Positions 11,036 through 22,339 are shown, counted from the stretch's first letter. The stretch is DNA of 64,000 bases from an uncultured Lutimaribacter sp. (GCA_913061505.1 CAJXSO010000005.1:1-64000); one strand, 5' to 3'. Notes: generated by a model not told the origin, from the sequence alone. Translations and numbers: made by a program.

Positions 11036-12205
11036 ATGGATTTGGCCCGACTCAGAACATATGTGATTGGCGGCGGCATTGGCGGGCTGGCCACGGCCTT
11101 GGCCCTTGCGCAACGCGGTGCCGATGTGACGGTTCTGGAACAGGCCCCCGAAATTACCGAGGTGGGCGCGGGCCTGCAGATCAGCCCAAATGGCTTTGCC
11201 GTGCTGGCGGCCTTGGGGCTAGGGGGGCAGCTGGCGCAGGCCGGCGTGCAGGCCCAAGGTGTCAGCCTGCGCGATTATCGCAAGGGCCAGGTGGTGGCGC
11301 TGGATTTGCAGCGCTTGGTGCGGCGCGATTATTATTTCGTGCACCGCGCCGATCTGATCGCGATTTTGGCACAGGCCGTGCGCGCCGCAGGGGTGCGGCT
11401 GCGCCTGCTGCAGCGGGTGGATCAGGTGGATCTGCAGGGCGAAAAGCCCGCGCTTATTTTGCGCGATGGCACCAAACTATCGGCCGATCTGCTGGTGGGG
11501 GCCGATGGCGTGCATTCGGTGCTGCGCCCTGCCATTCTGGGCCCGGCCCAGCCCCGCTTTACCGGGCAGGTGGCCTGGCGCGCGATTGTGCCCAACACCC
11601 AAGGGCGCGGCCCGGTGGCGCATGTGCATATGGGGCCGGGGCGGCATGTGGTCAGCTACCCGCTGCGGGGGGGCGAATGGCTAAATGTGGTGGCAGTGCG
11701 CGAACAGGCTGACTGGGCCGATGAAAGCTGGACTGCGGCCGATGATCCGGCCAATCTGCGCGCCCATTTTGCCGATTTCGGCCCCGAGGTGCAGGGACTG
11801 TTGGCGCAGATCACCGAGGTGCGGCGCTGGGGGCTGTTTCGCCACCCCGTTGCGCCGCAGTGGTATCGTGGCCAAGCGGCCTTGCTAGGCGATGCCGCCC
11901 ACCCCACGCTGCCCTTTCTGGCGCAGGGGGCCAATATGGCGCTGGAGGATGCCTGGGCGCTGGCCATGATGGCGGCCCGCCACGACACGCTGGCCCAGGC
12001 GCTGGCGGGCTATCAGGCGCTGCGCCACGCGCGTGCCTGCAAGGTGATCAATGCCGCCAGCGGGAATGCATGGAAATACCACCTGTCCTGGCCACCCCTG
12101 CGCTGGGCGGCCCATAGCGCGCTGCGCTTGGGCGGGGGTTTGGCCCCAGATAAAATGGTGCACCAGTTCGATTGGCTTTATGGCTACGATATCACCCGCA
12201 TCTAG
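11036..12205 (+). CDS. FAD-dependent monooxygenase (salicylate-hydroxylase type)
   Basis: 389 residues, group A flavoprotein hydroxylase. VIGGGIGGLATALALAQRG is the FAD Rossmann motif, LVGADGVHS the DG motif, and LLGDAAHPTLPFLAQGANMALEDA the GD motif that binds FAD and pyridine nucleotide. The substrate cannot be read from sequence; aromatic acids such as salicylate or 6-hydroxynicotinate are typical for the subgroup. The ATG lies 16 bp behind the dksA terminator with no convincing ribosome binding site, so a leaderless or very short leader transcript is possible. It converges on pyc. Confidence 0.87.
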   Translation: MDLARLRTYVIGGGIGGLATALALAQRGADVTVLEQAPEITEVGAGLQISPNGFAVLAALGLGGQLAQAGVQAQGVSLRDYRKGQVVALDLQRLVRRDYYFVHRADLIAILAQAVRAAGVRLRLLQRVDQVDLQGEKPALILRDGTKLSADLLVGADGVHSVLRPAILGPAQPRFTGQVAWRAIVPNTQGRGPVAHVHMGPGRHVVSYPLRGGEWLNVVAVREQADWADESWTAADDPANLRAHFADFGPEVQGLLAQITEVRRWGLFRHPVAPQWYRGQAALLGDAAHPTLPFLAQGANMALEDAWALAMMAARHDTLAQALAGYQALRHARACKVINAASGNAWKYHLSWPPLRWAAHSALRLGGGLAPDKMVHQFDWLYGYDITRI

Positions 12206-12240: not shown

Positions 12241-15200
12241 TTATTCCAGCTCGATCAGCAGGTCTTTGGCATCGATCTGGCCACCGGCGTTGACATGCAC
12301 CGCTGCAACCTTGCCATCGCGCTCGGCGTGCAGGCCGGTTTCCATCTTCATCGCCTCGATCGTCAGCAACAGATCGCCGGTTTTCACCTCTTGGCCCACA
12401 CTCACTGCCACCGAGGCCACAACCCCCGGCATCGGCGCGCCGATATGGTTGGGGTTTGCGGCATCCATCTTGGGCCGCGCAAGGGTGCTTGATTTCACCA
12501 AACGGTTGGGCACCCGAATGCTGCGGGGCTGGCCGTTGAGTTCGAAAAACACCTTAACCTCGCCTTTTTCATCGGTTTCACCCACCGCTTGCAGGCGGAT
12601 TTCCAGCGTTTTGCCGGGATCGATTTCGGCGCTGATTTCTTCCCCGGGCTGCATGCCATAGAAAAAGGTTTTCGTGGGCAGGGTGCGCACGGGGCCATAT
12701 TGGCGATGGCGGCCCATGTAATCTAAAAACACCTTGGGATACATCAAATACCCGTTCAGATCTTCGTCATCCACCTCTTTGCCCTCAAGCTGGGCGCGCA
12801 GCTCGGTGCGGGTGGCCTCGATATCGACGGGGGGCAGATGGGCGCCGGGGCGGTCGGTGTTGGGTGCCTCGCCCTTTAGCACCTTGGCCACGATCCCTGC
12901 GGGAAAGCCGCCGGGGGGCTGGCCCAGATTGCCGCGCATCATATCGATCACGGAATCGGGAAAGGCCACATCGCGGGCCGGGTCTTCGACATCGCTGCGG
13001 CTGAGGCCCTGCGCCACCATCATCAGCGCCATATCCCCCACCACTTTCGACGAGGGCGTGACCTTGACGATATCGCCAAACATCTGGTTCACATCGGCAT
13101 AGGTGCGCGCAACGTCGGGCCATTTTTCTTCCAGCCCCATGGAACGCGCCTGCGCCTTGAGGTTGGTAAACTGCCCGCCCGGCATTTCGTGCAAATAAAC
13201 CTCGGATGCCGGTGCCGCCAGCCCCGATTCAAAGGCTGCGTATTGCGCGCGCACCTGTTCCCAATAATCGCTGATGGCGCGGATGTTGTTGATATCCAGC
13301 CCGGTATCGCGCGGGCTGTGGCGCAGCGCCTCGACGATCGAGCCCAGGCAGGCCTGCGATGTGCCCCCCGAAAACGCATCCATCGCCGCATCGACCGCAT
13401 CAACCCCGGCTTCGGCCGCGGCCAAAATGGTGGCGCCTGCCATGCCGCTGGTATCGTGGGTGTGGAAATGCACGGGGATCGTCAGCTCGTCTTTCAGCGC
13501 CGCCACCAGCGCCTTGGCGGCTGCAGGTTTCAATAGCCCCGCCATATCTTTCAGCCCCAGAACATGGGCGCCGGCCGCCTCTAGCTCTTTGGCCATGGCG
13601 ACGTAATATTTCAGGTCATATTTCGCGCGCGCGGGGTCCAAAATATCGCCGGTATAGCACATCGTGCCTTCGCATATTTTGCCCGTGTCCAGCACGGCAT
13701 CCATGGCCACGCGCATGTTTTCCACCCAGTTCAGGCTGTCAAACACGCGGAAAATATCCACCCCGGTCGATGCGGCCTGGCGCACGAATTCCTGCACCAC
13801 ATTATCGGGGTAATTGGTATAGCCCACCCCGTTCGAGGCGCGCAGCAGCATCTGCGTCAGCAGGTTGGGCATGGCGCTACGCAGATCGCGCAGGCGCTGC
13901 CAGGGGCATTCTTGCAAAAAGCGATAGGCCACATCAAAGGTGGCGCCGCCCCAGCATTCTACCGAAAACAGCTGCGGCAGGTTTGCGGCATAGGCCGGCG
14001 CCACGCGGATCATATCGATCGAGCGCATGCGCGTGGCCAGCAGCGATTGGTGCCCGTCGCGCATGGTGGTATCGGTCAGCAGCAGCCGATCCTGCGCCAG
14101 CATCCAATCGGCCACGGCCTTGGGGCCTTTGGTTTCCAGCAAGGTTTTGCTGCCTGCCACGGGCGCGCCCTGGGGCGCGGGTGCGCGCGGGTCTTTCAAA
14201 TCAGCGGCCGGGCGCGGGCGACCGGCGGTTTCGGGGTGCCCGTTGACCGTGATATCGGCGATGTAGCTTAGCACCTTGGTGCCGCGGTCGCGGCGCTTTT
14301 TGAAATCAAACAGATCCGCCGTTTCATCGATAAACTTGGTGGTATATTGGTTTGACAGAAAGGTGGGGTGTTTCAGCAGGTTTTCGACAAAGGCGATATT
14401 GGTGCTGACGCCGCGAATACGAAATTCGCGCAAGGCGCGGTCCATGCGGGCGATGGCCTTTTCAGGGGTGGGGGCCCAGGCGGTGATTTTGGTCAGCAAG
14501 CTGTCGTAATAGCGGGTGATCACGCCGCCGGCATAGGCTGTGCCACCATCCAGGCGAATACCCATGCCCGTGGCGCTGCGATAGGCGGTGATGCGGCCAT
14601 AATCGGGGATGAAATTGTTTTGCGGGTCTTCGGTGGTGACGCGGCATTGCAGGGCATGGCCATTCAGGCGGATGTCATACTGGCTGGCTTTGCCCGTGGC
14701 CTCGGCCAGGCTTTTGCCCTCGGCGATCATGATCTGGGCCTGCACGATATCGATGCCTGTCACCTCTTCGGTGACGGTGTGTTCCACCTGCACGCGGGGG
14801 TTGACCTCGATGAAATAGAACTTGCCGGTTTCCATATCCATCAGGAATTCAACGGTGCCGGCGCATTCGTAATTCACATGGGCACAGATTTTGCGGCCCA
14901 GCTCGCACAGCTCTTCGCGTTGGGCCTCGCTGAGATAGGGCGCCGGGGCGCGTTCCACCACTTTTTGGTTGCGCCGCTGCACCGAACAATCGCGCTCGTA
15001 TAGGTGATAAATGGTGCCGTGGCTGTCGCCCAAGATCTGCACTTCGACGTGGCGGGCACGGGTGATCATCTTTTCCAGATAGCCCTCGCCATTGCCAAAG
15101 GCGGCTTCGGCCTCGCGGCGGCCCTCGAGCACCTTTTCACGCAGCTCGGCCGGGCCCATGATGGGGCGCATCCCGCGCCCGCCGCCGCCCCAGCTGGCCT

Positions 15201-15681
15201 TTAGCATCAGCGGATAGCCAATGGCCTCGGCCTCGGCGGTGATGGCATCGAAATCATCGCCCAGCACTCCGGTTGCGGGAATAACCGGTACGCCCGCGGC
15301 AATCGCCACCTTGCGCGCGCTGGCCTTATCGCCCAAGGCGCGCATGGTTTCGGCCTTTGGCCCGATGAAGGTAATGCCATTGGCGGCGCAGGCATCGACA
15401 AAATCGGGGTTTTCCGACAACAGCCCATAGCCGGGGTGAATGGCATCTGCCCCCGAGGCCAACGCCACGCGGATCATTTCCGGGATCGACAGATAGGCCG
15501 CTACCGGGCCCAGCCCCTCGCCGATGCGATAGGCCTCGTCGGCCTTAAAGCGATGCAGGCCCAGCTTGTCTTCCTCGGCATAAACCGCCACGGTTTTCTT
15601 GCCCATTTCATTGGCTGCGCGCATCACGCGGATGGCAATCTCGCCGCGGTTGGCGATCAGGATTTTCTTGAAATCGGGCAT
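12241..15681 (-). CDS. pyc: Pyruvate carboxylase
   Basis: 1146 residues, the normal length of the single-chain enzyme that makes oxaloacetate from pyruvate, bicarbonate and ATP. Order: biotin carboxylase (KILIANRGEIAIRVMRAANE at the start, GGGGRGMR ATP-grasp loop, FIEVNPRVQVEHTVTE), carboxyltransferase (TTMRDGHQSLLATR, metal-binding HFHTHDTSG), and a C-terminal biotinyl domain with the biotinylated lysine near 1112 in EAMKMET. The ATG at 15681 is chosen because AGGAA precedes it and the protein then begins MPDFKKIL as in homologs. An operator-like palindrome lies about 160 bp upstream. Confidence 0.97.
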   Translation of the reverse strand: MPDFKKILIANRGEIAIRVMRAANEMGKKTVAVYAEEDKLGLHRFKADEAYRIGEGLGPVAAYLSIPEMIRVALASGADAIHPGYGLLSENPDFVDACAANGITFIGPKAETMRALGDKASARKVAIAAGVPVIPATGVLGDDFDAITAEAEAIGYPLMLKASWGGGGRGMRPIMGPAELREKVLEGRREAEAAFGNGEGYLEKMITRARHVEVQILGDSHGTIYHLYERDCSVQRRNQKVVERAPAPYLSEAQREELCELGRKICAHVNYECAGTVEFLMDMETGKFYFIEVNPRVQVEHTVTEEVTGIDIVQAQIMIAEGKSLAEATGKASQYDIRLNGHALQCRVTTEDPQNNFIPDYGRITAYRSATGMGIRLDGGTAYAGGVITRYYDSLLTKITAWAPTPEKAIARMDRALREFRIRGVSTNIAFVENLLKHPTFLSNQYTTKFIDETADLFDFKKRRDRGTKVLSYIADITVNGHPETAGRPRPAADLKDPRAPAPQGAPVAGSKTLLETKGPKAVADWMLAQDRLLLTDTTMRDGHQSLLATRMRSIDMIRVAPAYAANLPQLFSVECWGGATFDVAYRFLQECPWQRLRDLRSAMPNLLTQMLLRASNGVGYTNYPDNVVQEFVRQAASTGVDIFRVFDSLNWVENMRVAMDAVLDTGKICEGTMCYTGDILDPARAKYDLKYYVAMAKELEAAGAHVLGLKDMAGLLKPAAAKALVAALKDELTIPVHFHTHDTSGMAGATILAAAEAGVDAVDAAMDAFSGGTSQACLGSIVEALRHSPRDTGLDINNIRAISDYWEQVRAQYAAFESGLAAPASEVYLHEMPGGQFTNLKAQARSMGLEEKWPDVARTYADVNQMFGDIVKVTPSSKVVGDMALMMVAQGLSRSDVEDPARDVAFPDSVIDMMRGNLGQPPGGFPAGIVAKVLKGEAPNTDRPGAHLPPVDIEATRTELRAQLEGKEVDDEDLNGYLMYPKVFLDYMGRHRQYGPVRTLPTKTFFYGMQPGEEISAEIDPGKTLEIRLQAVGETDEKGEVKVFFELNGQPRSIRVPNRLVKSSTLARPKMDAANPNHIGAPMPGVVASVAVSVGQEVKTGDLLLTIEAMKMETGLHAERDGKVAAVHVNAGGQIDAKDLLIELE

Positions 15682-15859: not shown

Positions 15860-16990
15860 CTAGCGCAGCCGGCTGGCGGCCTGGTGCAGGGTTTCAAGGC
15901 CCAGCTGGCCCATATTGGCCTGCAGATCCTTTTGGAACATGTCGATCAAATGGCCCGGCCCATCCAGCCCCAAAGCGGCCAGCGCATAATGCCAGGCGCG
16001 CCCCATCATCACGAAATCAGCCCCCAGCGCGAAGGCGCGCAAAATATCCAAGCCCCCTTCGATGCCGCTGTCATAAATCAGCGGCAGGCCGGTGGCGGCG
16101 CGCATGGCGGGCAGCACCTCGGCGGGGCCGGGGGCGGCATCGAATTGCCGCCCGGCGTGGTTCGAAATCCAGATCCCATCCACCCCGGCTTGTTCCAGTT
16201 TCGGGGCATCTGCCGGATCCATCACACCTTTCACCACGAAAGGGCCATCCCAGGCATCGCGCAGCCAGCGCAGATAATCCCAGTCGGGCGAGGTGCGCAG
16301 CAAATAGCCGATATGTTCGGTGGGGGGCAGGCCGGGCTTGTCTTTGGCATAGCGCGCGATCGTTGGCATGCGCGGGCGGCCATGGGCCAGCGTGGCCATA
16401 GCCCATGCCGGGCGCATGGCGATTTGGGCCAGCAGGCGCGGTGTCATCCGCGGCGGCTGTGTCAGCCCCGAGCGCGTTTGCCGCTCGCGGCGGCTGGCGA
16501 CGGGCACATCGACGGTCATGACCAGGGTGCGAAAGCCAGAAGCGCGGGCGCGATCCAGCAAATCGCGGCGGATCTCTGGGTTTTTGGGCGGGTATAGCTG
16601 AAACCACCCCTTGCCATCCACGCAAGGGCCCACGGTTTCAGGATCGGCCGAGGCGACAGTAGACAGGGTGTAGGGAATGCCCGTGGCTGTGGCCACGCGG
16701 GCCAATTGCCGCTCGGCATCGGGCCAGATCAGCCCCGACATGCCCACAGGCGCCACGCCAAAGGGCAGGGGGTGGGTTTGGCCAAACAAGGTGACGCTGG
16801 TGTCGAAATCGATCGGGCCATGCAAGATCGAGGGCATCATCGTGATCGCATCCAGCGTGGCGCGATTGCGGTGTTTGGTGGCCTCTTGCCCGGTGGCGCT
16901 GTCAAGATATTCCCAAACAAACAAGGGCAGGCGCTGTTTGGCGCGGCGTTTCAGGTCGCTCAGACCGGGGTATTTTGCGTGCAGATCCAT
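15860..16990 (-). CDS. FMN-dependent alpha-hydroxy-acid dehydrogenase (L-lactate dehydrogenase type)
   Basis: 376 residues of the glycolate oxidase / LldD family, which oxidises L-2-hydroxy acids to 2-oxo acids with FMN. FMN and active-site motifs are in place: PFGVAPVGMSGLIWPDAE, WFQLYPPK with the substrate tyrosine, the catalytic histidine in SNHAGRQFD, and the phosphate-binding DSGIEGGLDILRA and GRAWHYALAA. Usual family wording is SNHGGRQLD, so the active site loop is slightly altered. It starts 4 bp after the stop of the reductive-dehalogenase-like gene and must be co-transcribed with it, which points to a substrate linked to that protein rather than routine lactate use. Confidence 0.88.
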   Translation of the reverse strand: MDLHAKYPGLSDLKRRAKQRLPLFVWEYLDSATGQEATKHRNRATLDAITMMPSILHGPIDFDTSVTLFGQTHPLPFGVAPVGMSGLIWPDAERQLARVATATGIPYTLSTVASADPETVGPCVDGKGWFQLYPPKNPEIRRDLLDRARASGFRTLVMTVDVPVASRRERQTRSGLTQPPRMTPRLLAQIAMRPAWAMATLAHGRPRMPTIARYAKDKPGLPPTEHIGYLLRTSPDWDYLRWLRDAWDGPFVVKGVMDPADAPKLEQAGVDGIWISNHAGRQFDAAPGPAEVLPAMRAATGLPLIYDSGIEGGLDILRAFALGADFVMMGRAWHYALAALGLDGPGHLIDMFQKDLQANMGQLGLETLHQAASRLR

Positions 16991-16994
16991 AGGC

Positions 16995-18203
16995 CTATTT
17001 GGCGTGGGGTTTTTCGGTTTGTCCAGCGCTCTTTGGCGCCCACCATTGCCCCGGCTTGCGCCGCCCGCCGCGCCCCTTGTCAAGCCACAGCGCAAACCGG
17101 CGCAGCGGCGACAGCGCCAGGCGCCGCCACAGCCGGTGGCGCAGTTTCGAAAAATCGCGGTTAAAGGGGCACACACGCATGCATATGGCGCAATCCGAGG
17201 CCATTTTGGCCCAAAACCCAAAACATTTCTCGGCGTCTGATGTCCATTTCTTTACCCCCCGAATGGCCGAGATATTGGGCGTGTCAAAACTGGGCGGTCC
17301 ATAGGGCAGGGCCTTAACCGGGCAGGCATCGGCGCATTTGGTGCAGATATCGCAAAACCGCGCCACGCCCTGGGGGCGGGGCCTGTCATGGGCCAGCGGC
17401 AGGTTTGTGTAGATCTTGGAAAAGCGCAGCCGCGGGCCAAATTCGGGGGTGATCACCATCTGGTTGCGCCCATATTCCCCCAACCCCGCCTGCAGCGCAT
17501 AGGGAATGGCCAGGCCCGTGTCGTTCATCGAGGCCACAGCCTGATAGCCCAGGTTGCGAATGTAGGCCGCCAGCTGCATGACCACCGCCGCCTCGTGGCT
17601 ATAGGCGCGGCCCGTCGCAGCCCCCGCCAGCGCGGAAGGGTAGGTATCAACCAAGGCGCCATCCATCGCATGGCCCAGAACGATCACATGATCCAGCCCC
17701 GGCGGCAGGGTGTTTGGCGCCTCTTGCAGGGTGCGCGTGTCAACCCGGCTGGCGTATTGCCAGCGCGGATCAAAGGCGGTGATGCCGCAGAGATCGGCGC
17801 CGAAAAACTGCGCCACCTGTTTGATTTCGCGGGCCATATCTGCGGGGCTTTCAACGGCTATGGCCTGGGGGGCAACTGGGGTGTCGGGCTGGATCGGCGC
17901 CTGAAACCCCTCGCGCAGGCCATCGCTGGCGCGCCGGTTGGCCACGATATCGGCCAGCAGCCAGGCGGCGTTGCGCAGGGCAAAATCGCGGTGCTGAAAC
18001 CCCTCGCCGCGCCTTGGGGCGGCCTCGATCCGATACGAGGCGAAAAACCCATCGGTTTGGGCGCTGCGCAGGGTGTCATCCCACATGGCGCGGGTGAAAA
18101 TATCGTTGCGCTGCACGAAGGGGGCAAAATCGGCGTTGGTGTGAATGCCGGCGTCGGCGTCGGCGTCGCTGGGGGGCTGGGGCTGTGTCGTGCGCTGTGT
18201 CAT
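16995..18203 (-). CDS. Reductive-dehalogenase-like cobalamin/4Fe-4S protein
   Basis: 402 residues from the ATG at 18203; a TTG 45 bp further upstream is also possible. RdhA-type features: FFGADLCGITAFDPRWQY near 133-150, DTYPSALAGAATGRAYS with Y201 where RdhA enzymes keep a catalytic tyrosine, and AGLGEYGRNQMVITPEFGP. Two ferredoxin-type 4Fe-4S sites follow: C284, C287, C290, C294, and C327, C338, C341, C345 (spacing 10-2-3), inside the pattern CFGFW...DC..C...CPF. There is no Tat signal, no RdhB anchor gene and no fused reductase, so it would be a small cytoplasmic enzyme. QueG has a different C-terminal layout. Substrate unknown. Probably one operon with the dehydrogenase gene after it. Confidence 0.82.
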   Translation of the reverse strand: MTQRTTQPQPPSDADADAGIHTNADFAPFVQRNDIFTRAMWDDTLRSAQTDGFFASYRIEAAPRRGEGFQHRDFALRNAAWLLADIVANRRASDGLREGFQAPIQPDTPVAPQAIAVESPADMAREIKQVAQFFGADLCGITAFDPRWQYASRVDTRTLQEAPNTLPPGLDHVIVLGHAMDGALVDTYPSALAGAATGRAYSHEAAVVMQLAAYIRNLGYQAVASMNDTGLAIPYALQAGLGEYGRNQMVITPEFGPRLRFSKIYTNLPLAHDRPRPQGVARFCDICTKCADACPVKALPYGPPSFDTPNISAIRGVKKWTSDAEKCFGFWAKMASDCAICMRVCPFNRDFSKLRHRLWRRLALSPLRRFALWLDKGRGGRRKPGQWWAPKSAGQTEKPHAK

Positions 18204-18254
18204 GGTCTGACCGTATTTCTTGCGCGTAATCCTGTCTATGGGTCGCAAACAGAG

Positions 18255-18266
18255 GCGACATGTCGC
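18255..18266. promoter_or_regulatory. Perfect 12-bp palindrome in a divergent promoter
   Basis: GCGACATGTCGC lies between the start codons of the reductive-dehalogenase-like gene (18203, minus) and the beta-hydroxyacid dehydrogenase gene (18309, plus). The heptamer GTCGCAA also occurs twice, at 18242-18248 and 18262-18268, 20 bp (two helical turns) apart. The arrangement suggests a dimeric repressor or activator controlling both directions; none is encoded next door. Confidence 0.5.
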
Positions 18267-18308
18267 AATGGCGGCGTTGGATTGGGCGCAACCAGAGGAG
18301 GGGAATTT

Positions 18309-19259
18309 ATGAACGTAGGATTTATCGGCCTGGGCGCTGTGGGGGGCAAATTGGCGGGCAGCCTGCTGCGCAATGGCATTTCCTTAAGCGTGTTTGATCT
18401 GGATGGCGCACGGGTGCAGGAGTTTGTGCAGCGCGGCGCGCGCGATGGTGGATCGGCCGCTGAGCTGATGCAATATTGCGATGTGGTGATCACCAGCCTG
18501 CCCAGCCCGGCGGCCAGCGCGGCTGTGCTGGATGAAATGATGCCCCATATCGCGGGCAAGACATGGATGGAAATGTCGACAACCGACGCCGCGCAAATCG
18601 TGGCGCAGGCACAGGCCGTGGCCGCGGCAGGCGGGCGCGCGGTGGATTGCCCGGTATCGGGGGGCTGCCACCGGGCGGGCACGGGCAATATCAGCATCTT
18701 TGCCGCCTGCGACCGCCCCACATTCGAGCAGGTTTTGCCGCTGCTGACTATCATGGGCCGGCGCGTTCTGCATACAGGCGATGTAGGCACGGCATCGACC
18801 TTGAAAGTGATGACCAACTATCTGGCCACCGCCAATTTGCTGACCTGCTGCGAGGCGCTGGTTACGATGAAGGCGGCGGGTATGGATCTGGCCACCACCT
18901 ATGAGGCTATTCGCATCAGCTCGGGCACGTCATTTGTGCATGAAACCGAAAGCCAGCTGATCTTGTCTGGCTCGCGCGATGTGGATTTCACCATGGATCT
19001 GGTGTTGAAAGATATCGGCCTGTTCCAGCGCATCGCCGAAGAAAATGGCGTGCCGTTGGAAATTTCGCCCGAGATTATTCGCATCATGAAAGACGGGCAG
19101 GCGCGCTATGGCGACCGGGCGCAATCTGATCGTATCATCGAGCGGCTGGAAGAGGCGACAGGGCTGCAAATTCTGGCCGATGGTTTCCCCCAAGAGCTGG
19201 TGGATGACGAACCCGAAGAGCGCGGCTACGAAGTGGGCCGCGGTTTGGGCCGGGCGTGA
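18309..19259 (+). CDS. NAD(P)-dependent beta-hydroxyacid dehydrogenase (3-hydroxyisobutyrate dehydrogenase family)
   Basis: 316 residues. The Rossmann motif FIGLGAVGGKLAGSLL opens the protein, MEMSTTDAAQ and DCPVSGGCHRAGTGN form the substrate-binding part, and the catalytic lysine is in STLKVMTNYL. Family members reduce or oxidise 3-hydroxyisobutyrate, tartronate semialdehyde and similar C3-C4 acids. The CH in the usual glycine-rich SGG loop is unusual. A strong AGAGGAGGGG ribosome binding site fixes the start. It is divergent from the reductive-dehalogenase-like/alpha-hydroxy-acid dehydrogenase operon and may share its regulation. Confidence 0.87.
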   Translation: MNVGFIGLGAVGGKLAGSLLRNGISLSVFDLDGARVQEFVQRGARDGGSAAELMQYCDVVITSLPSPAASAAVLDEMMPHIAGKTWMEMSTTDAAQIVAQAQAVAAAGGRAVDCPVSGGCHRAGTGNISIFAACDRPTFEQVLPLLTIMGRRVLHTGDVGTASTLKVMTNYLATANLLTCCEALVTMKAAGMDLATTYEAIRISSGTSFVHETESQLILSGSRDVDFTMDLVLKDIGLFQRIAEENGVPLEISPEIIRIMKDGQARYGDRAQSDRIIERLEEATGLQILADGFPQELVDDEPEERGYEVGRGLGRA

Positions 19260-19323: not shown

Positions 19324-19800
19324 ATGGATGACAATGTTTTGGCGCGGCTGCATGCCTCGCCCATCCGGCGTTGGCTGGGTGTGGGTATGCTGGGCGTCTT
19401 GGGTGCTGCGCTGATTTGGCTGGCCCTGTCTGGCCCGGCACAGCAGGGCTGGGCGCGGGCGCTGTTGGCCTTGGCCGGTCTTGCGGCAGTGGCTTTGGGC
19501 GATGTGATGCGGCGCGCCACGGCCCATGGGCTGGAACTGACGCGCTACGCCCTGCGCGATAGCAGCGGGCGGGTGCTGGCCGAGGTCGACCAGATCGTGC
19601 GGGTGCATCGCGGGGTGTTTGCCTTTAAGCCATCAAACGGGTTCAAGCTGACGCTGTCGCGTGCGCATGATGCGGCATGGATGCCGGGCCTTTGGTGGCG
19701 CTTTGGCCGCCAGCTTGGGGTGGGCGGCGTGATCCCGGGCACCCAGGCCAAATACATGGCCGAGGTGCTGGAACATTTGATTGCCGAACGTGGCGCTTAG
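19324..19800 (+). CDS. Membrane protein of unknown function with a PH-like soluble domain
   Basis: 158 residues. Two transmembrane segments (about 17-36, VGMLGVLGAALIWLALSG, and 43-60, ARALLALAGLAAVALGD) precede a beta-rich part: GLELTRYALRDSSGRVLAEV, IVRVHRGVFAFKPSNGFKLTL, then WWRFGRQLGVGGVIPGTQAK. The pattern is like small bPH2-type membrane proteins. Function not known. It follows the dehydrogenase gene by about 65 bp on the same strand and its stop overlaps the end of the convergent TadE-like gene by 4 bp. Confidence 0.75.
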   Translation: MDDNVLARLHASPIRRWLGVGMLGVLGAALIWLALSGPAQQGWARALLALAGLAAVALGDVMRRATAHGLELTRYALRDSSGRVLAEVDQIVRVHRGVFAFKPSNGFKLTLSRAHDAAWMPGLWWRFGRQLGVGGVIPGTQAKYMAEVLEHLIAERGA

Positions 19801-20369
19801 CCGCCAGCCCATTGCAGCTGCGGGGTAAAGCGGGGCGTGAAAAAAGTGGCATTGTGGATCGTGCCGCCATTCACCCCCGCAACCCCCTGCGCCATCACCC
19901 GAATCGAGGGGGTAAAGGGCGCCCAGGTTTCCACGTAGATAATGCGCCCGTAATTGGGCTGTGCGGGCAGGCTGGTGGCCAGCGTGGCCAGATGCTCGGC
20001 GCTGATTGCGCCGGTTTCGGCACTTGTGCTGCGCGACCATTCGGCCACGAATTGTGAGGCTTGCGCATCCCAGCGCAGCACCGACACGCGCAAGGCGCTG
20101 CCGGGTTCGGCCCGGGCCAGCAAGTTGAACGTGCTGTGCATTGCGGCCAGATAGGCAGGCGTGATCTCCCCGGTTTCGCGCGACAAGATATCGCCCACAA
20201 TTTCCGTGGCTTTCAGGTTCAGGCTGGCCTCGCGGTGCATATCAAACACCCCATAGCCCCCCACAACACCCAGCATAATGACAGGCAGGCCAATCACGCT
20301 TTCGATGGTGATGCTGCCCCGCTCGTCGCGTTGAAACCGGGAAAGGGCGCGTTTTAGTTTTTTGAACAT
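19797..20369 (-). CDS. TadE/TadG-like pilus-assembly protein
   Basis: 190 residues. The N-terminal part FQRDERGSITIESVIGLPVIML is the TadE-type leader: a basic start, then a glutamate in a hydrophobic transmembrane helix (E24). The rest is a small extracytoplasmic domain. TadE/TadG pseudopilins take part in Flp-type pilus (tight adherence) assembly. It is the last of three such genes in a row, 10 bp after the preceding one, so they form one operon. No tadABC or flp gene lies nearby. Confidence 0.8.
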   Translation of the reverse strand: MFKKLKRALSRFQRDERGSITIESVIGLPVIMLGVVGGYGVFDMHREASLNLKATEIVGDILSRETGEITPAYLAAMHSTFNLLARAEPGSALRVSVLRWDAQASQFVAEWSRSTSAETGAISAEHLATLATSLPAQPNYGRIIYVETWAPFTPSIRVMAQGVAGVNGGTIHNATFFTPRFTPQLQWAGG

Positions 20370-20378
20370 GGGCTTACC

Positions 20379-20909
20379 TCACTGTGCTTGCACATAGGCT
20401 GATGTTGCGGTCACGCGCGCCCAGCCATCATTGCCATCGGTCATGGCCTGGCCAAAGCTGCTAAGCGGCAGATAGGGGCGGTATTGGGCGCAGGCGCGCA
20501 GCAAAACCACCCGTTCCGACACCCCATTGGTAAATTTGTGCAAGGGCGCCACGGGGGCGATTGTGTCGGTGCAGCTGGGGGCGGCTGGATCGACCCAGTT
20601 GTTGGGGTCCAGCACCACCATTTCCAAGCGCAGGTTTTCGACGCAATTGCTGATCAACACCGTTTTATCGCAAATCGCGGCCTTGATTTCGGCGTGTTGC
20701 ATGGGGGTGCTGCTGGGCAGGCGCAATTCGCGGGCTGTGCGGTCAAGCGCGGTTTCCAGCGCCGCGTTGCGCCAGCTGGCACTGCCCATTTCCAGCCCTG
20801 CCACCAGCAAGAACAGATAGATGGGAAACCAGATGACAAATTCGATCGTGGCATTGCCTGATTGGTCGGCGGCAAGGCGGCGCAGCTTGTGCAGGAAGGA
20901 TGCGATCAT
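20379..20909 (-). CDS. TadE-like pilus-assembly protein
   Basis: 176 residues. I start at the ATG at 20909, which overlaps the stop of the upstream TadG-like gene (ATGA). The N-terminus has the TadE signature: AADQSGNATIEFVIWFPIYLFLLVAGLEMG, with the conserved glutamate after ATI. Four cysteines (C98-type pair ICDKTVLISNC plus C in SCTDT and RACAQY) could form disulfides in the periplasm. Middle gene of the three-gene pseudopilin operon. Confidence 0.83.
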   Translation of the reverse strand: MIASFLHKLRRLAADQSGNATIEFVIWFPIYLFLLVAGLEMGSASWRNAALETALDRTARELRLPSSTPMQHAEIKAAICDKTVLISNCVENLRLEMVVLDPNNWVDPAAPSCTDTIAPVAPLHKFTNGVSERVVLLRACAQYRPYLPLSSFGQAMTDGNDGWARVTATSAYVQAQ

Positions 20910-22339
20910 TGCGAAAGCCTTTGGTTGGTGATGGAGCGTGCGATGCTGCTTAGGGCGCCGGTGAGCTGGCTGCCTGCCACTGCAAAGCTGTGATTGGGGC
21001 TTGAGGCACAATCGCGCATCAAGCTGTCGGTGGCGGCGTCGCCCTCAAAGCTGACTGCCCAGATGATGATGCCGGCCGCCTTGGCGCTGGCGCAGATGTC
21101 GCGTGTCATCTGGTCGCCGGCGCTGCCCGGGTAATAAAAGCGCCACCAGTTGTTGCGCTGCGATAAGGGCACGTAGCTAGAGACGTAGTACCAAAAGTTA
21201 TAGGCGTTCCAATGCGCGTAGTGGCTTTGGTTGGCATAAAGGCTGGGGTTGATCCGGTAGCTATCGGTATTGGTGCCGCTGGCCACAACCACCAGTGATT
21301 TTTGGGTGTTGGTATCGGTGGCCAGCGCTGGGCGGCCGCGAAACGCCTCGGGGGTTGTGCCCTGTGTGGCCAGGCCATTCACCAGGTTGGCGCTGCCGCT
21401 ATCCAGCAGGGTTGTGCCCCATTTGACACCGGCAAACACCGACACGCCCGCGCGCGGCTGCAATTGCGCCACCTGTGCCTTAAGCGCGGTGCCATCATTG
21501 CTGAGCGGGCTGATTGCCTCGTAGGAATAGCGCGGGCACACGGTGTTGGTGCGGGTGTTGCTGAACCCGTCATAATCCCATTGGAAATGCTGCACCTGTG
21601 GGTAGGTAAAGGCCTGTGTCAGCGTGGCGGTGCGGTATTCGGCTGCGGGCATTTCCACGCAATACGAATAGTTATGCACCCAGTTCGTGCTGAGCTGGCT
21701 GAACAGTGGCCAGCCAATGTTGACCTGTTCGGAATAGGGCACAAGGCTGACGGAAACCTGGCTGTTGCCATCGGCGGGCAGCACGGTGTTGATAAACGCA
21801 TCCGCCGCGCTGCGCAGGTTTTGCATGCGCGTGCCGGTGGCCATGTTGCGCGAAATATCCAGCACCAGCGAAATTTCCAAGTTGCCCACGGTTTCGGCCA
21901 CATTTGTGGTGGCCCGCGCCGTGCCAAGCGCCGGCACCACCCGGCCCGCGCCTTGCGGCAGGGCCAGGCTGGCGCTGGTTGCAACCGAGCGCGCATTTTG
22001 CGTGGTTTGTGCAGCAAAGGGCGCCAGCGTTGCGGCCACGCCCGCCTGCGCCAGATAGGCATCGACCGTTTCGCGTGGCGTTTGCACGCGGGCGGTATCG
22101 GCTGCCGCTAATGCCGCGCGATCCAGCGTTGCCTGCAGCTTGGTGCGGTAAAGCTCGTGACGCATCAAATCAACGCCGATATACGAGATCGCCCCCACAG
22201 CCACCACCAGCGGGATGGCAAAGGGCAATATTGTGCCATCTTCAGCGCGCGCAAACCGGGCCAGCCACGACCAAGCTGGCCGAAGATGCTGTGCTGTCGC
22301 GCCTGATGCAGGCGAAAGGTGATCTTGATGCAATGTCAT
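20906..22339 (-). CDS. TadG-like protein with VWA domain
   Basis: 477 residues. The N-terminal RAEDGTILPFAIPLVVAVGAIS (about 31-52) is the TadG transmembrane leader with a downstream helical stalk rich in alanine. A VWA domain begins near 157 with LVLDISRNM; D161 heads a MIDAS that reads DxSxN instead of DxSxS. The C-terminal part is rich in Tyr, Trp and Asn (NAYNFWYYVSSYVPL, NNWWRFYYPGS), which suits surface adhesion. It heads the operon of three Tad-like genes. Translation start at 22339 has only a weak GGACC upstream. Confidence 0.84.
   Translation of the reverse strand: MTLHQDHLSPASGATAQHLRPAWSWLARFARAEDGTILPFAIPLVVAVGAISYIGVDLMRHELYRTKLQATLDRAALAAADTARVQTPRETVDAYLAQAGVAATLAPFAAQTTQNARSVATSASLALPQGAGRVVPALGTARATTNVAETVGNLEISLVLDISRNMATGTRMQNLRSAADAFINTVLPADGNSQVSVSLVPYSEQVNIGWPLFSQLSTNWVHNYSYCVEMPAAEYRTATLTQAFTYPQVQHFQWDYDGFSNTRTNTVCPRYSYEAISPLSNDGTALKAQVAQLQPRAGVSVFAGVKWGTTLLDSGSANLVNGLATQGTTPEAFRGRPALATDTNTQKSLVVVASGTNTDSYRINPSLYANQSHYAHWNAYNFWYYVSSYVPLSQRNNWWRFYYPGSAGDQMTRDICASAKAAGIIIWAVSFEGDAATDSLMRDCASSPNHSFAVAGSQLTGALSSIARSITNQRLSQ

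Follow-up and report, generated by a model that had tools for sequence, protein, structure and literature searches.

Characterised relatives

The closest described systems to the reductive dehalogenase-type (RdhA) protein encoded in a 64,000-nucleotide stretch of DNA from an uncultured Lutimaribacter sp. (GCA_913061505.1 CAJXSO010000005.1:1-64000; the whole stretch is referred to as the window) are two proteins with activity on halogenated phenols. Ros_A3X954 of Roseobacter sp. MED193 was expressed by Li et al. (AEM, April 2026; PMC13101508). According to that report, it converts 2,6-dibromophenol to 2-bromophenol with a kcat of 1.1 per s and a kcat/KM of 1.5e4 per M per s, contains about 8 Fe per protein and some Co, and is oxygen-sensitive in vitro, its activity being lost in oxygen. 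It is described there as being without a twin-arginine translocation (Tat) signal, with PF13486 at residues 174-269, CDICTKCADACP at 283-294 and CAICMRVCP at 337-345 (PMC13101508). The second protein, A0A2T7UTL8 of Pararhodobacter aggregans, deiodinates 2,4,6-triiodophenol to phenol (Ng and Silver 2024, cited in PMC13101508) and belongs to the same clade because of its 72.2% identity to Ros_A3X954 (PMC13101508). The clade has already been reported, and the window locus adds a member to this known group.

On the published description, Ros_A3X954 and the window protein are alike in being standalone and Tat-less and in carrying PF13486 and identical CDICTKCADACP and CAICMRVCP motifs, at positions that are one residue apart throughout. 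Ros_A3X954 comes from another genus; the window gene adjoins a gene of the LldD type. PceA of Sulfurospirillum multivorans (PDB 4uqu) and PceA of the reductive dehalogenase (RDH) complex (PDB 8q4h) have the fold, the two [4Fe-4S] clusters and a Tyr/Asn/Arg set in common with the window protein, but these are respiratory enzymes with Tat signals, whereas the window protein is Tat-less and cytoplasmic. BhbA (Comamonas 7D-2) and JtRdhA (Jhaorihella thermophila) share the family, the ortho-halophenol chemistry and aerobic hosts, including Rhodobacteraceae. However, they are self-sufficient catabolic proteins of about 1,070 residues that include a degenerate copy at the N-terminus as well as a fused reductase, and they form a separate clade. 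Finally, NpRdhA (PDB 4ras) resembles the window protein in its fold and in not being fused to a reductase, but it is about 700 residues long, has Lys488 in place of Arg260 of the window protein, and clusters with the BhbA clade.

Identification of the RdhA protein

The window protein is very probably a standalone reductive dehalogenase of the cytoplasm that depends on cobalamin and belongs to the Ros_A3X954 clade; it is predicted to remove ortho halogens from bromo- or iodophenols. The family, the fold, the conservation of the clusters and active-site residues, the clade, the selection on the gene and the gene context were computed here, whereas substrate, cofactors and oxygen sensitivity are taken from the published relatives. 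The features of the gene are given below; all coordinates are positions in the window.

18203 (ATG) to 16995 (stop), minus strand: RdhA-type gene, probable standalone cytoplasmic reductive dehalogenase of 402 residues (TIGR02486, PDB relatives, tree, AlphaFold2 fold, and ratio of non-synonymous to synonymous substitutions, dN/dS)
17166-17354, minus strand: region of the two [4Fe-4S] clusters, C284-P346, with CDICTKCADACP and CAICMRVCP (Pfam Fer4_16 at residues 284-348)
17601-17603, minus strand: codon of Tyr201, aligned with the catalytic Tyr246 of PceA and with Tyr426 of NpRdhA
17523-17525, minus strand: codon of Asn227, aligned with Asn272 of PceA
17424-17426, minus strand: codon of Arg260, aligned with Arg305 of PceA and Lys488 of NpRdhA

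The first-pass annotation had described an RdhA-type protein of 402 residues at 16995-18203, which is confirmed here, on the minus strand. The protein scores 177 bits against the NCBIfam reductive dehalogenase model TIGR02486 (curated cut-off 160.35) and 24.9 bits, barely above the cut-off of 24.3, against Pfam PF13486, with the match at residues 175-270. The sequence features that had been listed are all present: Cys 284/287/290/294 and 327/338/341/345, GADLCGITAFDPRWQY, AGLGEYGRNQ, and Tyr201-Ser202. The motif CDICTKCADACP occupies residues 284-295 and CAICMRVCP residues 338-346. In an alignment of 32 sequences the eight cysteines, Tyr201, Ser202, Asn227 and Arg260 are invariant; Tyr201, Asn227 and Arg260 are the equivalents of Tyr246, Asn272 and Arg305 of PceA. 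A phmmer search against solved structures ranked PceA (1e-50 to 1e-48) above NpRdhA (1e-30) and QueG (1e-10). Comparison with the same-genus orthologue over 290 codons gave a dN/dS of about 0.094, which indicates that the gene is under strong purifying selection.

The absence of a Tat signal, of RdhB and of a fused reductase, as claimed earlier, was borne out. The N-terminus (MTQRTTQPQPPSDADADAG) contains no RR-x-F-x-K motif, and the domain search found no reductase domain fused to the 402 residues. A gene for an RdhB membrane anchor was found neither next to the RdhA-type gene in the window, among open reading frames of at least 100 residues, nor as a conserved neighbour in about 80 loci, where open reading frames of at least 80 residues were considered. 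With neither a Tat signal nor RdhB, the distinction from respiratory enzymes holds. The contrast that had been drawn with the oxygen-tolerant NpRdhA stands for sequence and domain layout; the clade member Ros_A3X954 is also oxygen-sensitive in vitro. These data support a cytoplasmic, standalone protein of the RdhA family that is neither of the respiratory nor of the BhbA/NpRdhA type.

Predicted structure and phylogeny

An AlphaFold2 model of the window protein, built from the 32-sequence alignment, reached a mean predicted local distance difference test score (pLDDT) of 84.6 and a predicted template modelling score (pTM) of 0.86. In Foldseek its template modelling scores (TM) were 0.65-0.74 with PceA, 0.65-0.69 with NpRdhA and 0.34-0.39 with QueG, which supports an RdhA-type cobalamin-enzyme fold for the modelled protein chain. 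The structure prediction that had been suggested as a check thus favours PceA and NpRdhA far more than QueG. A divergent QueG (tRNA epoxyqueuosine reductase) would have the cobalamin- and cluster-binding core in common with the window protein, and there is a weak match to the QueG model TIGR00276. This match, at 53.7 bits, is far under the cut-off of 200, the fold agreement is low, and the host genome has a QueG of its own (G000:C51), which clusters with the named QueGs in the tree. On model score, tree and fold the identification as QueG is ruled out, and the probability that we would leave to it is negligible.

Maximum-likelihood analysis of 71 core domains, a check of the kind proposed in the first-pass annotation, places the window protein within a group of standalone enzymes, separate from BhbA/JtRdhA/NpRdhA, from the PceA-like respiratory enzymes and from QueG. 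Its place inside its own clade is settled (support 100/99). The deep branches have moderate support only and some long branches meet, so that the tree does not fix how the main RdhA groups branch relative to one another. Length, domains and tree together rule out a fused or NpRdhA-type catabolic RdhA.

The clade consists of standalone enzymes of marine Alpha- and Gammaproteobacteria. An orthologue of the window gene was found in 55 of the 397 sampled genomes of the family of the host, and more clade members are located on contigs from Hyphomicrobiales, Geminicoccaceae, Rhodovibrionaceae, Hellea, Granulosicoccaceae and Woeseiaceae. Of 110 clade members, 106 carry the CAICMRVCP motif, which is missing from every fused, respiratory or QueG sequence compared. 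The window gene and this wide list of hosts extend the recently characterised group of cytoplasmic debrominases, and the list bears on the turnover of natural bromophenols in oxic seawater.

More divergent sequences were also encountered. Two standalone RdhA-like proteins (L138, G251:C1:496780, and L142, G211:C2:449113) share 46% and about 36% identity, respectively, with the window protein and may represent separate subfamilies. One genome of another alphaproteobacterial family (G771; contigs C1, C5 and C11, L132 and L141) gave five matches of the RdhA type. Four of these are in open frames 349-403 residues long, and three of the four lie in a stretch of about 6 kb of a single contig.

Genomic context

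The RdhA-type gene lies between an LldD-type gene, which is followed by a pyruvate carboxylase gene, and a divergently oriented gene of the HIBADH family:

15860-16990, minus strand: LldD-type, flavin mononucleotide-dependent alpha-hydroxy-acid dehydrogenase (LldD/mandelate dehydrogenase family; PF01070, 401 bits)
12241-15681, minus strand: pyruvate carboxylase (PycA), open reading frame with its start set at the conserved MPDFKKILIANRG; LldD-PycA adjacency in L172-L181
18204-18308, no strand: divergent intergenic region between the RdhA-type and HIBADH genes, 105 bases
18309-19259, plus strand: HIBADH-family dehydrogenase (PF03446 and PF14833)

The RdhA stop and the LldD-type start are 4 bases apart on the same (minus) strand, and to judge from this spacing alone the two genes may form an operon. 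The HIBADH start, on the plus strand, is 105 bases from the RdhA start, and 178 bases separate the LldD-type gene from that of pyruvate carboxylase. Lactate oxidase and (S)-mandelate dehydrogenase are the nearest solved structures to the LldD-type protein.

Across the compared neighbourhoods, which span up to about 20 kb, no constant companion gene of RdhA was found. In one recurrent setting, found in Roseobacter-type genomes, RdhA adjoins HIBADH and Tad-type genes. In another, typical of Octadecabacter/Roseicyclus/Nioella-type genomes, an HNH endonuclease gene and a hydrolase gene precede RdhA, which is followed by zwf-pgl-pgi. Elsewhere the contexts are scattered. In Octadecabacter-/Yoonia-type loci (L053, L056, L059, L061, L070, L074, L084 and similar ones) the string of genes in which RdhA follows the HNH endonuclease gene is headed by cobalamin-synthesis genes, the types of which (CbiD, CobK, CobA) were assigned by eye from sequence. 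These genes were considered as a functional link and rejected: they are several genes away, beyond the HNH endonuclease and the hydrolase, and are missing from the other subclades.

The gene arrangement had led to the proposal of a short (halo)hydroxy-acid pathway, with oxidation by the LldD-type enzyme, dehalogenation by RdhA and reduction or oxidation by the HIBADH-family enzyme. The 4-base spacing and the divergent HIBADH gene agree with such a pathway, as does the fact that the one further genome of the genus retains the RdhA-LldD pair. The orthologues are also commoner where RdhA is present (HIBADH in 45/55 genomes with this RdhA vs 142/342 without; LldD in 46/55 vs 160/342), in counts that ignore shared ancestry; in the absence of RdhA, too, both are common. 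The gene for a flavin adenine dinucleotide (FAD) monooxygenase (11036-12205), tried as a control for co-occurrence, is present in 339 of the 397 genomes and is therefore too common to serve as such. The wider comparison, however, did not show a conserved three-gene neighbourhood. Outside the genus, none of the loci examined has LldD beside RdhA, except for a single 31% homologue on the opposite strand. The eight LldD orthologues that are nearest among those from other genera (68-71% identity) all have pyruvate carboxylase directly downstream, with RdhA absent. HIBADH adjoins RdhA in 17 of 35 Roseobacter-type loci, a set that includes a few genomes entered twice from two collections, and in none outside. 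Moreover, by established redox chemistry the electrons of hydroxy-acid flavin enzymes would be too weak for making cob(I)alamin. Taken together, this makes the hydroxy-acid pathway very unlikely.

The comparison indicates that the window joins two older blocks, HIBADH-RdhA and LldD-PycA, which meet exactly in the gap from the stop of RdhA to the start of LldD; such a seam is as expected from a rearrangement. The LldD-PycA pair may be sufficiently explained by a route from lactate via pyruvate to oxaloacetate, if the family names are taken as a guide. As judged from gene order, the LldD-type gene is a neighbour of RdhA and not a dedicated partner, and as a partner or electron source it is ruled out by its pairing with pyruvate carboxylase. 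HIBADH is a weak candidate for a dedicated partner, being adjacent in part of one subclade and common in genomes without this RdhA. A tight gene pair in a single genome can hint at a pathway that wider comparison removes.

Proposed function

Since the relatives in the clade dehalogenate, ortho-dehalogenation of halophenols is the likely job of the window protein, and we infer for it the same substrate as for the relatives, as well as the electron donor. Low-potential electrons, most likely from the general ferredoxin or flavodoxin system of the cell, would reach cob(II)alamin through the pair of [4Fe-4S] clusters, and the cob(I)alamin formed would remove the ortho halogen (bromine or iodine) from the halophenol. 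Tyr201 is the likely proton donor and would be aided by Arg260 and Asn227. With a less halogenated phenol as the expected product, the enzyme could serve in detoxification or make the substrate accessible to catabolism, probably when oxygen is low.

Some observations weigh against this assignment. Ros_A3X954 was assayed with artificial donors, titanium citrate and methyl viologen (PMC13101508). That the window protein is of the Ros_A3X954 kind is a strong inference, made from exact motifs, coordinates and taxon and not from a full alignment. In addition, the compared loci showed no halophenol catabolic genes that accompany RdhA. An orphan gene of this kind, strongly conserved and lacking a surrounding halophenol operon, could also encode a cobalamin reductase of RdhA fold whose natural reaction is not dehalogenation, the halophenol activity of the clade being a side reaction; the donors in the published assays were artificial. 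We consider this improbable, as the published kcat/KM on 2,6-dibromophenol is 1.5e4 per M per s, two members act on halophenols, and the catalytic Tyr/Asn/Arg set of PceA is retained. The non-dehalogenating B12 redox reaction that had been offered as a second possibility is unlikely in view of the same two published dehalogenases (PMC13101508). It also seems unlikely that the clade acts mainly on a natural substrate other than bromophenols, as a B12-dependent reductase of general use in aerobic marine bacteria. Dehalogenation of bromo- or iodophenols thus remains the function that we favour.

Host genome and further observations

The host genome, of 3.0 Mb, has its relatives among Rhodobacteraceae such as Ruegeria, Sulfitobacter and Planktotalea, and contains a gene for CobS as well as two for oxidases of the COX1 type. 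A second type of RdhA is encoded elsewhere in this genome, outside the window (G000:C2:9712-10548, L002): a reductase-fused, self-sufficient protein of 1,068 residues that is 49% identical to BhbA. Both types, standalone and fused, also occur in the one further genome of the genus. Three Tad/TadE-type pilus assembly genes are present in the window on the minus strand (19797-22339), and many Roseobacter-type genomes keep them in the same order beside HIBADH and a gene for a small protein (19324-19800).

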